A DNA stretch of 14,783 bases, taken from positions 1 through 14,783 of the forward strand of contig NYZA01000071.1 in assembly GCA_002686955.1 (NCBI GenBank), written 5' to 3'. The translations under genes were made by a program, and so were the position numbers. The notes under the pieces are model-generated. The model worked only from the letters and a program-made list of their open reading frames with translations. It was not told the DNA's origin and searched no databases. The stretch comes from Gemmatimonadota bacterium. Its GTDB lineage: Bacteria > GCA-2686955. Below are positions 1,997 to 11,519 of this stretch, in pieces. Numbering within the stretch: position 1 is the first letter of the stretch; each line of letters opens with the position of its first letter.

Positions 1997-2062
1997 GGTG
2001 TGCTGCCTCGTATTTGGCGGGAGTTGTCGCCGGGTGGTTGAGGGCTCCGATCAGAGTGTCTA

Positions 2063-2134
2063 ATCGGGATAGGGAGGGACCTCACGGCCCCCCCCTCCCA
2101 CACCACCGCACATACGGATCACGTATACGGCGGT
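2063..2134 (-). ncRNA. Group II intron ribozyme domains V and VI
   Basis: Read on the minus strand, 2134-2102 folds into a 33-base domain V hairpin. It has a lower stem ACCGCCG with CGGTGGT, then U.G and A-U pairs, a two-base bulge (TG), a four-pair upper stem TACG/CGTA and a five-base loop. The triad position reads CGC, as in some bacterial classes. Domain VI follows (about 2099-2066), with GGGAGGG pairing to CCCTCCC and an inner GGCC/GGTC stem capped by GTGA. An A at 2070, eight bases from the 3' end counting inclusively, is the likely branch point. Pairing was done by eye. The overall pattern is characteristic of a complete 3' ribozyme end, so the RNA core looks intact even though the protein may not be. 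Confidence 0.78.
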
Positions 2135-2155
2135 TCGGCGGATTGGGTGGTCGGT

Positions 2156-3481
2156 TCATCTCTCGATCAGACAGGGTAAGCCGAGCGCTCTGAAATGTCG
2201 CGCGGGTAGCGCGAACGATAGTGCCGGGCTGTGGCTCAGGCGCCACGGTCCGTGGGCTGACTTGGCTGTGTTCCAGGCCAGCTTGCGGGACACGCCCCGG
2301 GCGCGAAGTTCCCGGTATCCCCTGCGACCCCACTGCTTCCAGTGGTAGCAGCGTAGCCGCCTGCGAATCCACTTGTCCAGATCGCGCAGTGGCGAGCTCA
2401 CTTCGGCAAAGCCGTAGTAACCCCTCCAGCCCAGGATGTAGATCCGGAGCTCGTGCACGATCCGAGCGACAGTGCGTCCGCGAGTGCGACGGGTGAGAAC
2501 TCGCACCTTGGCCTTGAAGGCCAAGATCGCCTTCTTGCTCACCTTCCGCCGGGGGTTCCGGCCTCGGGTGAATGTGAAGCCCAGGAAATTCCGATTCCAT
2601 GGCCGGTCCACTGTGCTCTTGGTCTCGTTGACCTTGAGCTTCAGTCGACCTTCCAGGAAACGGGTGACGCTGGCCATCACGCGTTCGCCGGCCTGCTGAC
2701 TGCGTACATAGATGTTCGCATCGTCGGCGCATCGGATGAATCGGTGGCCTCGCTTCTCCAGTTCTTTGTCGAAGTTATCAAGCAACAAATTTGCGAGCAG
2801 CGGTGAGAGTGGCGCGCCTTGCGGCGTACCCTCCACCGTAGGCTCCAGGGCTCCTCTCAGGCTCAGCACTCCGGCCGTCAAGAACCGGTGGATCAGCCGC
2901 AGCACCCGTCGGTCCCTAACACGCTTGCGCACACGGCTTAGATCGAAAAACTTCTCCAAATCAAGATCGACCACCCACGTATATCCGCTCCGTATGTGCG
3001 TCTGCGCCTGTGACACCGCTTGGTGCGCGCTGCGCCCCGGCCGAAAACCGTAGCTGTGTTCCGAAAAGGTCGGATCCCACTCTGCCTGCAATACTTGAAG
3101 CAGCGCCTGTCCAATGAACCGGTCGAGCACAACCGGCACTCCCAGATTTCGGGTCCCACCCCCGCCCTTCGGGATCTCTACCCGTCGGACCGCTTGGGGC
3201 TTGTAGGTCCCTGCCAGCAGGGAGGCGCGGATGCTTGGCCACTCCTTTCGTAGATAGTCCGCCAGGTCTTCGACGGTCATCCCGTCGATCCCCGGCGCAC
3301 CTCCGTTGCGTCTGACCTGGCCGAGTGCGCGCCGCAGATTTGCCGCCTCCAGCACGCGCTCCATCAGGTCCGATCCTTCCACCGGAGCGTCCTCTCCGCT
3401 CGTCCCAGTCATGGCTTCATCCCCCCAGTCGCCCAGGGGCAGCTCGAGCTGCTCAGCGAATGCAATGCCATGTCTCGACAA
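2156..3481 (-). CDS. ltrA: Group II intron reverse transcriptase/maturase, likely RT-defective
   Basis: A 441-residue intron-encoded protein that would promote splicing (maturase) and target-primed reverse transcription of its intron. N-terminal RT blocks include GAPGIDGMTVEDL (about 61-73), RRVEIPKGGGGTRNLGVPVVLDR (99-121), YGFRPGRSAHQAV (144-156), VDLDLEKFFD (171-180), EGTPQGAPLSPLLANL (217-232) and CADDANIYVRS (251-261). The maturase/X domain covers about 300-425 and the protein ends without an En endonuclease domain, as in group IIC. Two oddities stand out. After EKFFD the usual RVNHxxLM is absent and the chain goes straight to LSRV, an in-frame loss of about seven residues near 2941. The usual YADD reads CADD. 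The catalytic Asp residues remain, so splicing may persist while mobility is impaired. The start is TTG at 3481 with GGGAGG eight bases upstream. An ATG also occurs nearby at about 3472 but is out of frame. Confidence 0.92.
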   Translation of the reverse strand: MSRHGIAFAEQLELPLGDWGDEAMTGTSGEDAPVEGSDLMERVLEAANLRRALGQVRRNGGAPGIDGMTVEDLADYLRKEWPSIRASLLAGTYKPQAVRRVEIPKGGGGTRNLGVPVVLDRFIGQALLQVLQAEWDPTFSEHSYGFRPGRSAHQAVSQAQTHIRSGYTWVVDLDLEKFFDLSRVRKRVRDRRVLRLIHRFLTAGVLSLRGALEPTVEGTPQGAPLSPLLANLLLDNFDKELEKRGHRFIRCADDANIYVRSQQAGERVMASVTRFLEGRLKLKVNETKSTVDRPWNRNFLGFTFTRGRNPRRKVSKKAILAFKAKVRVLTRRTRGRTVARIVHELRIYILGWRGYYGFAEVSSPLRDLDKWIRRRLRCYHWKQWGRRGYRELRARGVSRKLAWNTAKSAHGPWRLSHSPALSFALPARHFRALGLPCLIER

Positions 3482-3969
3482 AACGGTGACCTCCCCTCTC
3501 CTTCAATCCCCTCTCGGGGAACCGTTCGGGCCTTCATCCCTTTGCGTTGCGGCTCGGCCTATCTGTTGCCCCGCCTTTCGGACTTGGGGTGCCTCAATAG
3601 CCTCGCCTGCGCCGGGTCTACTATGCCCTCTGCTGACTTCTCCCGGTCGGTCGGGGACGGTTGCCCGCCCCCCACCCGAGGGACAACCGGGAGATCTCCC
3701 AGGGTAAGACACAGAACGTTCCGCGCGTAGACGCCGGATTTATAAAGCACACCCAATCGCGGATGGAGGACTTCGCGGTCACGTGCCCGCTCGTCCCAAG
3801 TGTGTCACACCTCATATCCGGTTCCTGTTCGTCGCCCCGCGCTTTTGGATTGGGCTTCCTCCAGACCCCACCTCGCGATGACGCCCTTGCCCTTTTCCTA
3901 GCCTTCGGCTCCGCTAATACCTGGCACGGGGACTTGCACCCCGCGCGCTCTGTGTCATGCCTGGCACAC

Positions 3970-4032
3970 ACGCCGCGAATCAGCTGCAAGGACGGCGTAG
4001 CCGGCCTTGTCCGCTGCATTCGCATGTTCGAC
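3970..4032 (-). other. Integron attC site, 5' part, interrupted by the intron (3' part at 2058-2062)
   Basis: Read on the minus strand, an attC layout is visible. R'' is GTCGAAC (4032-4026), one mismatch from RYYYAAC. After a two-base spacer comes a stem GCGAAT/ATTCGC (4023-4018 with 3980-3975). An unpaired G at 4017 takes the place of the extrahelical base of L''. CAGC/GCTG follows (4016-4013 with 3984-3981), then a GGA/CA internal loop like the unpaired central spacer, then CAAGG/CCTTG and CGGC/GCCG with a TAC loop. The site ends GGCGT at 3970 and is cut there by the intron. Past the intron it resumes TAGAC (2062-2058), giving GTTAGAC, a perfect R' (GTTRRRY). Total length without the intron is 68 bases, normal for attC. 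Its orientation is that expected for a site closing the cassette of the beta-helix gene upstream. The alternative is a plain terminator hairpin, which group IIC introns also target. The restored R' box and the extra L'' base argue for attC. Confidence 0.75.
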
Positions 4033-6865: not shown

Positions 6866-6921
6866 GCGCGCTGTCGCTGCACGGCCGTGCAGCATATCGC
6901 AACATGCGGGGGACAGCCGAG
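6866..6921. repeat. 56-bp direct repeat with 18-bp palindrome, copy 1
   Basis: This copy begins GCGCGCTGT and ends ACAGCCGAG. It contains the perfect palindrome GCTGCACGGCCGTGCAGC (6876-6893 by count). It matches the copy at 7250-7305 at 53 of 56 positions; the differences are c/g, a/g and c/t. The flanks diverge immediately on both sides. It could be an extragenic palindromic repeat, a protein-binding site or the end of a degraded mobile element. The sequence alone does not decide among these. Confidence 0.8.
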
Positions 6922-7249
6922 GCGATGGGCTGCGTAGCGACCGCGGGGATGCCTCTGGCCGCGACCATCCGCCGCCGCATCGGCCGCGGGGCGCATCGCG
7001 CAAAGGGAACGCCGTGGCGCACGGGTACCGCCGGTGAACCCGTTGGCGCGGGTGGATCCGGCCCCCGAGGAAGGACGGGTCTCGGCGCGATCGGGGGGAG
7101 GCGATCCGCGTGCCGCGGTGGCTGTGGAGACCGATAACAGAGCTGCCTTGGAGCGCCTCCGCAAGTGCATCTCGCACCCCGCTCCCGGCCCCGGCCCATC
7201 GCATCGAGAGCCTGCCGTCACCGATCCGCGCCGCAGCAGGTTCGATGGC

Positions 7250-7305
7250 GCGCGCTGTGGCTGCACGGCCGTGCAGCGTATCGCAATATGCGGGGGACAG
7301 CCGAG
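7250..7305. repeat. 56-bp direct repeat with 18-bp palindrome, copy 2
   Basis: Second copy of the repeat at 6866-6921, in the same orientation and exactly 384 bp away. The 18-bp palindrome is unchanged at 7260-7277, and all three differences between copies fall outside it. That pattern hints at selection on the palindrome, though three differences are too few to prove it. The sequence between the copies shows no gene I can support. Confidence 0.8.
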
Positions 7306-7492
7306 TCGTCGGGAGCGGATTCGGCGACCGGGAGACCCACATGGGCGAGGAAACCAGCCCGAGCGAGGCCCGTCTATCGGTCCGGTGCCACGGCGTGGAA
7401 CGAAAAGCGCAGCTCATATCTTCTACCCGCTACGCGTCTCGGTGAATGATGTGGGTTCGAGTTGTCGAGCCAGATCGTTCTCGGTGCTCCAC

Positions 7493-7555
7493 CCGACCGA
7501 CCTGAATCGTCCCGAAGCCGGCCCAGTCCACCTGCGCTTGCTCTCCGGGCATGCC
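7493..7555 (-). pseudogene. IS21-type transposase (IstA) remnant
   Basis: A minus-strand frame contains GMPGEQAQVDWAGFGTIQVGR. This resembles the start of the IstA integrase core in IS21-family transposases, where PGE-AQVD(W/F)G carries the first catalytic Asp. Only about 20 residues look homologous. The frame before and after is not IstA-like, and no IstB ATPase is adjacent. It is read as a degraded fragment of an old insertion. Identification rests on one short motif. Confidence 0.45.
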
Positions 7556-7811
7556 CAGCCGCGGAAGGCGGTTGCCCGCCCGCCAGTGCGCGGTCCTCCA
7601 GAGGATCTGACGCTTATATCGAAACGTCAGCGCGCGCCCGCCACACTTGCCGGAGATGACCATCCCCTGATACACGGATCCAGGCATCAGCTTCGGCACA
7701 CGCGTTCAAAAGCAACCCTACCTTGCCCGGCCGTGGATGGCAGCCGCTGGAGCTTGCGTCGCTTCGGCGGGCGGGAGAAAGATGTCGCGTATCGCCTCCC
7801 AAAGAAACGAT

Positions 7812-9600: not shown

Positions 9601-10755
9601 CTCGTCGATAATCAGAGTCGGGCCGTCACCTATCTGACCGACAACGGCTTCGCTCCGGGGGGGGTTTTGGTGGTCGAAGAGGGCAATCCGACCTTCTATA
9701 CGGCGCACCAGGCGCGGGCGGCTCTCTTTCTCGTCGAGATGTACGGAGAAACCCTGGATCCCACCTATCTTCAGGCGGCGAGCGATATCGCGGCTTTCGC
9801 TTCGGCCGAGATGCTCTCCGACGAGGTTGGGACGCCGAACGAAGGCGGATACCGATACACGCAGGATATTTCGCGGCTGCTCTGGCCCTGGATGTTCACG
9901 GTGGGCTATTCCGAGGCCGAGATGGCGTTGGCGGTGTCGCGCGTGGAACCGCACGGTTTGCGGGTGGACGACTGGCCGGAGCTTCTGACCGTCGCCGACC
10001 ACCTCGAGACGGTGCAGCAGGATCCGGACGGCGGGGTGTATTGGACCAATCGCGATGTCGATCGCACGCCGCTCGGCACCGATGCCCGAGCCTCGATCGC
10101 GTCGGCCCCGTTGCGCGAGGCCGGACTGCGGAGCGCGGGGATCGCGGCCACCGATTGGCTCGAGGCGCAGCAGGCGGTGGACGGAGGCTTCTTCAGTCCG
10201 CATCCAGTGCTCGCGTCGAGCGATCTGACGCGGGAGAACGCCTACGCGATTCGGGCCCTGATCGATGCGGGCTACGACCCCGATGCGGGCGTGCTGGATC
10301 TGGCGACCGACTGGCTGGTTGGCGCCCAGCTGGCCGACGGCTCCTTCCCCAGCGAGCTGGGTGAGCTTGACGGGAATGAGGACGCAACCACGGCGGCGGG
10401 TCTGGCGCTGATGGCGGCGCTCGGATCCACTTGCACGGTGACACCGGCGGTCGTCGAGGGGTACGAGGTGCCGGCGGGGGGCATCGCGGAGCTCACGGCA
10501 ACTCTCTGGAACCATGGGCCGCTGCCGATGAGCGTCGATGTCTGGTACGACGTGCTGGTTCCCGGGGGCAGCACGGTCGTATTGGGACCGCTCGCCGTGC
10601 CGATCGGGCCGCGCCAGAGTCTCGTTTCTTCCGGGAGCGTGCCGATCCCCTTGGCGGCGCCGCTGGGCGAGTACTTCCTGCGCTCCTACTGCGGGACTTT
10701 CTCTCCGCTGGAGGTCGTCGATCGGGACACGTTCCGATTCACGGTTGTGCCCTAA
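9601..10755 (+). CDS. Secreted alpha-toroid-like protein, body and C-terminal Ig-like domain (frameshifted)
   Basis: Continuation of the gene starting at 9243. If the one-base indel at 9597 is removed, the whole protein is about 503 residues. The body has spaced helical repeats, for example ARAALFLVEMYGETLDPTYLQAASDIAAF, ADHLETVQQDPDGGVYWTN, AGIAATDWLEAQQAVDGGFFSP, ENAYAIRALIDAGYDPDAGVLDLATDWLVGAQLADGSFPSE. The QxxDGxF/Y pattern after paired helices is that of the alpha/alpha-toroid (prenyltransferase/squalene-cyclase-like) fold. From about residue 240 of this part an Ig-like beta domain follows (VVEGYEVPAGGIAELTATLWNHGPLPMSVDVWYDVLVPGG). No catalytic motif could be named. If translated alone it could start at TTG 9667, but it would then lack an export signal. 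The stop TAA (10753-10755) touches the large inverted repeat. Confidence 0.65.
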   Translation, partial: LVDNQSRAVTYLTDNGFAPGGVLVVEEGNPTFYTAHQARAALFLVEMYGETLDPTYLQAASDIAAFASAEMLSDEVGTPNEGGYRYTQDISRLLWPWMFTVGYSEAEMALAVSRVEPHGLRVDDWPELLTVADHLETVQQDPDGGVYWTNRDVDRTPLGTDARASIASAPLREAGLRSAGIAATDWLEAQQAVDGGFFSPHPVLASSDLTRENAYAIRALIDAGYDPDAGVLDLATDWLVGAQLADGSFPSELGELDGNEDATTAAGLALMAALGSTCTVTPAVVEGYEVPAGGIAELTATLWNHGPLPMSVDVWYDVLVPGGSTVVLGPLAVPIGPRQSLVSSGSVPIPLAAPLGEYFLRSYCGTFSPLEVVDRDTFRFTVVP

Positions 10756-10843
10756 GGGTCCGCGCAAGAATAGCTTGTCATTTGGCATCCCATCTGCACC
10801 AAATCTGGGCGCCAAGATGACAAGTTGTTCTTGCGCGGACCCT
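10755..10843. terminator. Long inverted repeat between convergent genes (bidirectional terminator or small insertion)
   Basis: The left arm (10755-10786) and right arm (10811-10843) are near-perfect reverse complements: 16 identical bases beginning AGGGTCCGCGCAAGAA, a three-base stretch with two mismatches, then CTTGTCAT, one extra base in the right arm, and TTGGC. They enclose a 24-base loop. The repeat lies exactly between the plus-strand gene ending at 10755 and the minus-strand gene ending at 10842, and overlaps both stop codons. There is no U-tract of note, so it is not a textbook intrinsic terminator in either direction. It would form a strong hairpin in both transcripts. A small palindromic insertion that supplied both gene ends is the other reading. 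Confidence 0.7.
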
Positions 10844-11519
10844 AAAGCTCCACCACCCAGGCATCGGCAAGCCGGCTCACGATCGGTCCGGTCAGATCGA
10901 CGTGAGAGGTGATGCGATCGATGAGCGGGCCGTCCGAAGTCGCGAGCGGGCGGCCCAGTTCGATCGCGCGCCGGTCGGCGGAGTCGGCGAGCTCGGCCCG
11001 CCAGCCGGCCTCCCGGACGAGAGCGGCGATCCGCCCGCTGTTCGATACGGGGCGGTCGAAGAGCCAGAGGGCCTCGCTCGCCGCCGCGAGCTCGCCCGAG
11101 AGAAGCTCGATTGCGCGAATGGTTTCGTCGACGCGTCGGTAGGTGCCGTGCACGCTGGCCAGATCGCGGAGGAGGCGGTCGGTGCCGCGCAGCACGAGCC
11201 CACCGGATAGCGCGGCCTCGACGGTGACGAGAACGTTGAAGCCATCGACGACGACCCGCCGCCCTTCGCAGGCGACGCGCTTCGCGCACCTCGAACGGGC
11301 CTGTTCCGGCGCGCACACCGCCCGCATCAAGGCGGCGCGCTGCCGCTGGTGGAGCTGAAAACGGTTCCCGACGAGGGTCAGCGCCGCCCCGGGAGCGTAG
11401 TTCCTCCCGAGCAGCCAAGCGTAGTCCTCCGCCGCCCAGCGCAAATCGTCCAGTCGATCCGATCCGAAGAGACGCCGGTCTCGGGGGTGGGGCCCTCGGT
11501 GGCGGCGTCGATCGGACAC
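10842..11519 (-). CDS. DUF434 domain-containing protein
   Basis: A 225-residue soluble protein. The N-terminal half (about 22-80) matches the DUF434 pattern: LDDLRWAAEDYAWLLGRNYAPGAALTLVGNRFQLHQRQRAALMRAV. The second half has the conserved VVVDGFNVLVTVEAALSGGLVLRG (about 88-111), then helical RLLRDLASVHGTYRRVDETIRAIELL and later LWLFDRPVSNSGRIAALV and LATSDGPLIDRI. The family is widespread and uncharacterised. The spaced acidic residues (VVDGFN, LFDRP, ATSDGPLID) resemble a NYN/PIN-like nuclease layout, which is my inference. The start codon is GTG at 11519, with a weak GAGAG upstream. It begins nine bases after the stop of the S8 protease gene, so the two are probably co-transcribed. It converges with the secreted-protein gene and shares the inverted repeat at its 3' end. 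Confidence 0.85.
   Translation of the reverse strand: MSDRRRHRGPHPRDRRLFGSDRLDDLRWAAEDYAWLLGRNYAPGAALTLVGNRFQLHQRQRAALMRAVCAPEQARSRCAKRVACEGRRVVVDGFNVLVTVEAALSGGLVLRGTDRLLRDLASVHGTYRRVDETIRAIELLSGELAAASEALWLFDRPVSNSGRIAALVREAGWRAELADSADRRAIELGRPLATSDGPLIDRITSHVDLTGPIVSRLADAWVVEL

Follow-up and report, generated by a model that had tools for sequence, protein, structure and literature searches.

The intron that interrupts an integron attC site in the DNA studied here very probably belongs to a second lineage of attC-targeting group IIC introns, one that inserts in the top strand at R', runs in cassette direction and combines an EBS1 of ACGT with an IBS1 of RCGT. The stretch analyzed (“the window”, 14,783 nt) is the entire contig C71 of a Gemmatimonadota genome assembly. 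The known attC-inserting class is represented by the S.ma.I2-type introns of Serratia marcescens, reportedly described by Quiroga 2008 and by Leon and Roy 2009. Established group IIC-attC introns are found at R'' in the bottom strand of attC and run against the cassettes, with TTGT/T as the insertion sequence (PMC7923331). Both types are group IIC introns that lack an endonuclease, have a hairpin upstream and insert in an R box of attC between GT and T. They differ in that S.ma.I2-type introns lie antisense at R'' of the bottom strand with IBS1 TTGT and EBS1 ACAA, whereas introns of the window lineage share the direction of the cassettes and sit at R' of the top strand, with IBS1 RCGT and EBS1 ACGT, and in that their reverse transcriptases (RTs), 45–46% identical, fall in separate clades.

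Two Rfam group II models follow each other in order along the minus strand of the intron (group-II-D1D4-3 at 3882–3709 with 126.5 bits and an E value of 2.9e-26, and D1D4-1 at 3675–3599 with 40.3 bits), and domains V and VI fold at its 3' end (Table 1). The encoded protein is a group II RT/maturase (TIGR04416, 371.8 bits against a cut-off of 300) with RVT_1 and GIIM as its only domains. The missing endonuclease and the attC hairpin upstream of a short EBS1-IBS1 pairing (ACGT/GCGT) place the intron in group IIC. An earlier note on this DNA had located the split exactly within R', between GGCGT and TAGAC, with intron ends GTGTG...AT; the boundaries GGCGT/GTGTGCC...CCCGAT/TAGAC indeed agree with the ends of at least 15 related introns in other genomes.

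Joining the flanks after removal of the intron yields a 68-base site, GTCGAACATGCGAATGCAGCGGACAAGGCCGGCTACGCCGTCCTTGCAGCTGATTCGCGGCGTTAGAC, with the layout GTCGAAC-AT-GCGAAT-G-CAGC...GCTG-ATTCGC-GGC-GTTAGAC, in which the intron had separated GT from TAGAC of R'. All elements of an integron attC (R'', L'', L', R' and the extrahelical base) are recognizable, and the hallmarks already pointed out in the note are seen in the joined site: L'' has an extrahelical base, here a G on the minus strand, and R'' and R' agree at six of seven positions. The note had also proposed comparing the intron-deleted site with shuffled sequence in an attC model. When scored with a covariance-type model for which 17 intact attC sites at other loci were used and the window site was left out, it reached 29.9 bits, compared to 3.3 bits for the best other site in the contig and 1.3 bits for the best of 20,000 shuffles. 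The structure of this model was drawn by hand from the known attC layout, as RNAalifold gave none on the trimmed alignment, and part of the training set consists of neighbors of the very introns under study, from the clade of the window intron as well as from the canonical lineage. A rule-based attC finder, run on 1.5 Mb of dinucleotide-shuffled sequence, gave no site of this quality.

Table 1 Features of the window (all on the minus strand)
Feature	Position	Strand	Basis
Group IIC intron, 1907 nt	2063–3969 (5' end 3969, 3' end 2063)	−	Rfam D1D4-3 and D1D4-1; boundaries aligned with relatives
Intron-encoded RT/maturase, 441 aa	2156–3481	−	RVT_1 and GIIM, TIGR04416, clade alignment
Intron domains V and VI	2065–2134	−	Fold z −3.7; alignment with relatives
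EBS1 loop, ACGT	3781–3784	−	Pairs with IBS1 across relatives; same place as EBS1 184–187 of the E.r. IIC intron
IBS1 GCGT, end of 5' exon	3970–3973	−	Three Watson-Crick pairs and one G-T pair with EBS1
5' part of split attC, top strand	3970–4032	−	29.9 bits as top strand, 3.1 reversed
R'' GTCGAAC; L'' GCGAAT; extrahelical G	4032–4026; 4023–4018; 4017	−	
L' ATTCGC; GT of R'	3980–3975; 3971–3970	−	
3' part of split attC, TAGAC of R'	2058–2062	−	attC score; sequence read directly
Upstream gene, right-handed beta-helix protein, 876 aa	4105–6735	−	PF13229, 8e-40
Downstream cassette gene, AAA_15 ATPase, 619 aa, OLD/AriA/GajA-like	137–1996	−	PF13175, 9e-21
R''-like box GTCTAAC, possible start of next attC, cut by contig end	95–101	−	Sequence read directly

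Searching GTDB genomes with the RT as query yielded 80 related introns, and those closest to the window intron come from Marinobacter, Acidithiobacillus, Nitrospira, Dechloromonas, Herbaspirillum, Desulfobacteraceae, Stahlbacteria and others. In the RT tree (FastTree, local support values), the window intron falls in a clade of 25 members (support 0.997–0.998) nested among terminator-inserting group IIC introns, while the canonical S.ma.I2 lineage forms a separate group (support 1.0). The loop of domain I identified as EBS1 agrees in position with EBS1 at 184–187 in the solved E.r. IIC intron (PMC10190682). Over 31 distinct EBS1-IBS1 pairs, 106 of 124 positions are Watson-Crick pairs, against a mean of 41 and a maximum of 64 in shuffles. 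The loop reads ACGT in all 18 clade introns in which it is readable, and the 5' exons of the introns closest to that of the window end in NCGT. The window intron shares every feature of the clade: EBS1 ACGT, an NCGT exon end, an RT within the clade and the top strand of attC. Canonical controls from class 1 integrons all carry EBS1 ACAA (4/4, with three TTGT exons and one CTGT).

These two loops pair with different strands of attC. The top strand at R' reads GCGTT, ACGTT or TCGTT in the 17 reference sites, which is why ACGT can form at least three Watson-Crick pairs with the top strand in 17/17 of them, compared to 1/17 for the bottom strand; for ACAA, the counts are 1/17 for the top and 14/17 for the bottom strand. 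We propose that the intron RNA recognizes the attC hairpin and, on the top strand, the bases immediately preceding R', where EBS1 ACGT would pair with IBS1 RCGT and reverse splicing would take place between GT and T of R'. The opposite strand and end would then follow from a separate lineage whose recognition loop pairs with that end, and the cassette sense of the intron from the top strand being the coding strand of the array.

The loci of the relatives agree with this target rule. With the intron removed, 12 of 16 other clade loci scored 13–52 bits as top-strand attC, and four canonical controls in class 1 integrons scored 46–54 bits as bottom-strand attC. Neighboring attC sites detected with the covariance model lie on the strand of the intron near clade members (26/26; 13/13 outside the training set) and on the opposite strand near canonical introns (10/10; 6/6 outside the training set). 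The nearest upstream gene has the sense of the intron at 14 clade loci, and at 12 a downstream gene in the same sense starts at most 70 nt away. A full IntI is encoded in 11 of 19 clade genomes compared to none of 14 control genomes. Two members (L045 and L046) are identical over 1835/1835 nt in two different attC sites of one Herbaspirillum genome, so that, judged by sequence identity, the lineage has moved recently. Among the intron-deleted loci scored, no attC was found at the junctions of L048, L061 and L064, and L057 has an attC-like site that stays below recognition by the attC score; the specificity of the clade is therefore not absolute.

Those three members without attC, together with the nesting of the clade among terminator types and the general habit of group IIC introns to follow hairpins, are what speaks for a terminator-seeking intron for which the terminator-like hairpin of an attC was a chance target. 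The E.r. intron and its like are nearest in the RT tree, share the EBS1 position and also recognize hairpins, but they insert after terminators and their EBS1 pairs with varied or T-rich IBS1 sequences (PMC10190682). Since most members of the clade are inserted precisely at R' of attC, 11/19 of their genomes encode IntI and EBS1 is fixed as ACGT instead of being varied or A-rich, we reject terminator insertion for the clade as sampled here and regard it as very unlikely for the window intron.

Direction, on which the earlier note made no remark, separates the window intron from the canonical class. The intron, the attC top strand and both flanking genes all point one way, along the minus strand. 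We place the intron in the attC top strand, at R' and in cassette sense because reading the minus strand as top gives the site 29.9 bits and the opposite reading 3.1 bits, because the minus strand has the extra base in its L'', and because both genes are encoded there. Nearly symmetric arms would also allow an ordinary S.ma.I2-type intron at R'' of the bottom strand of an attC that is reversed relative to both flanking genes; R'' would then be a perfect GTCTAAC, and the rule-based finder accepts both directions. This reading is highly improbable and was rejected: besides the low score, it puts the extra base in the other arm and both genes against the cassette direction, the exon end is GCGT with EBS1 ACGT rather than TTGT with ACAA, the RT lies outside the canonical lineage (supports of 0.998 and 1.0 for the separate clades), and the canonical introns of the same genome look different. 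The assignment of the intron to the established group IIC-attC class made in the earlier note thus stands as to group IIC and insertion in attC (29.9 bits), but not as to the S.ma.I2-type lineage, from which strand, attC end, IBS1 and RT all set it apart. At the window site itself, the bottom strand offers ATGT as IBS1, with three Watson-Crick pairs and one G-T pair to EBS1, about equal to the top strand, and therefore pairing alone leaves the choice of strand unexplained at this site; the strand rule appears to hold for the clade without being proven at the window's own attC.

Members of the clade are also found in annotated class 1 integrons of five plasmids (from Proteus, Aeromonas, E. coli, Enterobacter and Shewanella), where they lie in cassette sense, carry EBS1 ACGT and split R' of the attC of aacA4, aadA1 or aadA2, sites that score 51–56 bits as top strand. 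An example is attC-aadA1 of pR148. For canonical introns, the interrupted box is R'' of the bottom strand; one of them (L138) occupies an aadA1-type site. In the IMP-4 class 1 integron of pPp47 (L153, 2503–5851), a copy of qacG2 lies on each side of aacA4 and its clade intron.

Two published exceptions have the same orientation. The intron of Shewanella algae KC-Na-R1 has the orientation of the cassettes and was called class C-attC, with a different invasion process suggested (PMC9229058). Its RT on the plasmid NZ_CP033574 is 62% identical to that of the Marinobacter member, a similarity that assigns it to the clade; like the window intron, it combines cassette orientation with a clade RT, but what the paper attributed to another invasion process of C-attC introns is explained here by another lineage. 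A group IIC intron of E. cloacae from 2012, described in PMC7923331 as a single unusual case in cassette sense on the attC top strand, resembles the window intron in these three respects and is probably a member as well; added here to that single case are the clade, its EBS1 and its spread. A separate lineage with its own loop thus accounts for same-orientation insertions and turns the exceptions, the E. cloacae one probably and the S. algae one by RT similarity, into members of one widespread lineage that follows a target rule of its own. We consider it probable that group IIC introns took to attC twice, and that a change of EBS1 to ACGT gave the second lineage the other strand and end, the cassette sense and introns that could be spliced from transcripts.

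In contrast to the antisense S.ma.I2-type introns at R'', an intron of this lineage could in principle splice out of the cassette transcript; if so, the sense ACGT introns would lead a quieter life in integrons than the antisense canonical ones. At the split site, recombination would be lost, and a lock on excision of the cassettes is plausible. The target rule opens a direct test of whether a loop of four bases determines the strand in which a cassette recombination site is invaded. With both lineages in resistance integrons and both at aadA-type attC sites, nature provides a sense and antisense pair with which effects on cassette expression and excision could be addressed.

The window copy itself is probably immobile without help. 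In the clade alignment, its RT has CADD in place of the YADD of an active RT and a 7-residue deletion after DLEKFFD, the first catalytic motif, both seen in no relative; the enzyme is therefore probably inactive. On C270 (L013, 1501–1536), a fragment of 36 bases that matches the 5' end of this intron without a difference follows GACGT, directly behind an apparent gene stop codon, possibly an abortive or decayed insertion.

The host assembly is 84.5% complete and represents a lineage with one family relative among the genomes searched. Canonical bottom-strand introns are present on C169 and C225 (at the contig end), both with TTGT/GTACGCC, and the 3' end of another lies on C265 behind a gene that by eye we take to be of GIY-YIG type, so that both lineages meet in one genome. 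On C169 (L014), the cassette gene adjoining the canonical intron is presumably SIR2-like, and the intron is cut by what we take to be an IS21-type istA/istB pair. Further attC sites of the host lie on C169 and C225, and C268 holds a weak candidate (26.8 bits, E value 0.13); the exact pattern TCTAAC...GTTAGAC was not found in the host genome. No intact intI exceeded the cut-off in the assembly, and C58 (L004, 1150–2180) carries a frameshifted, truncated tyrosine recombinase that resembles IntI (82.6 bits over the first 117 positions) and is followed by unrelated sequence. That the contig holds one complete site and the assembly no intact intI would fit a chance hairpin that is no attC, but this is the least credible reading and was rejected, given that no shuffle reaches the score (best 1.3 against 29.9 bits), homologous introns sit in the textbook attC-aadA1 and other attC sites exist in the genome.

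The ATPase encoded next to the split site matches AriA (1.5e-21) and Old (3e-15) in PADLOC and weakly OLD/GajA structures in the PDB, making its gene a candidate phage-defense gene. The R''-like GTCTAAC box lies after this gene, and its site would run past the contig end. The region upstream of the beta-helix gene contains a pair of direct repeats, each about 60 bp long (6870–6935 and 7253–7316), with related copies on C163 and C176, and the region 7430–7720 holds what, by eye, we take to be a remnant of an IS21-type transposase. For a palindromic element at 10755–10846 (GGGTCCGCGCAAGAA ... TTCTTGCGCGGACCC), BLAST gave 96 matches in the genome, with related copies numbering in the dozens; many of these copies appear split into two halves with about 130 nt between them, reminiscent of a short mobile element with inverted repeats.
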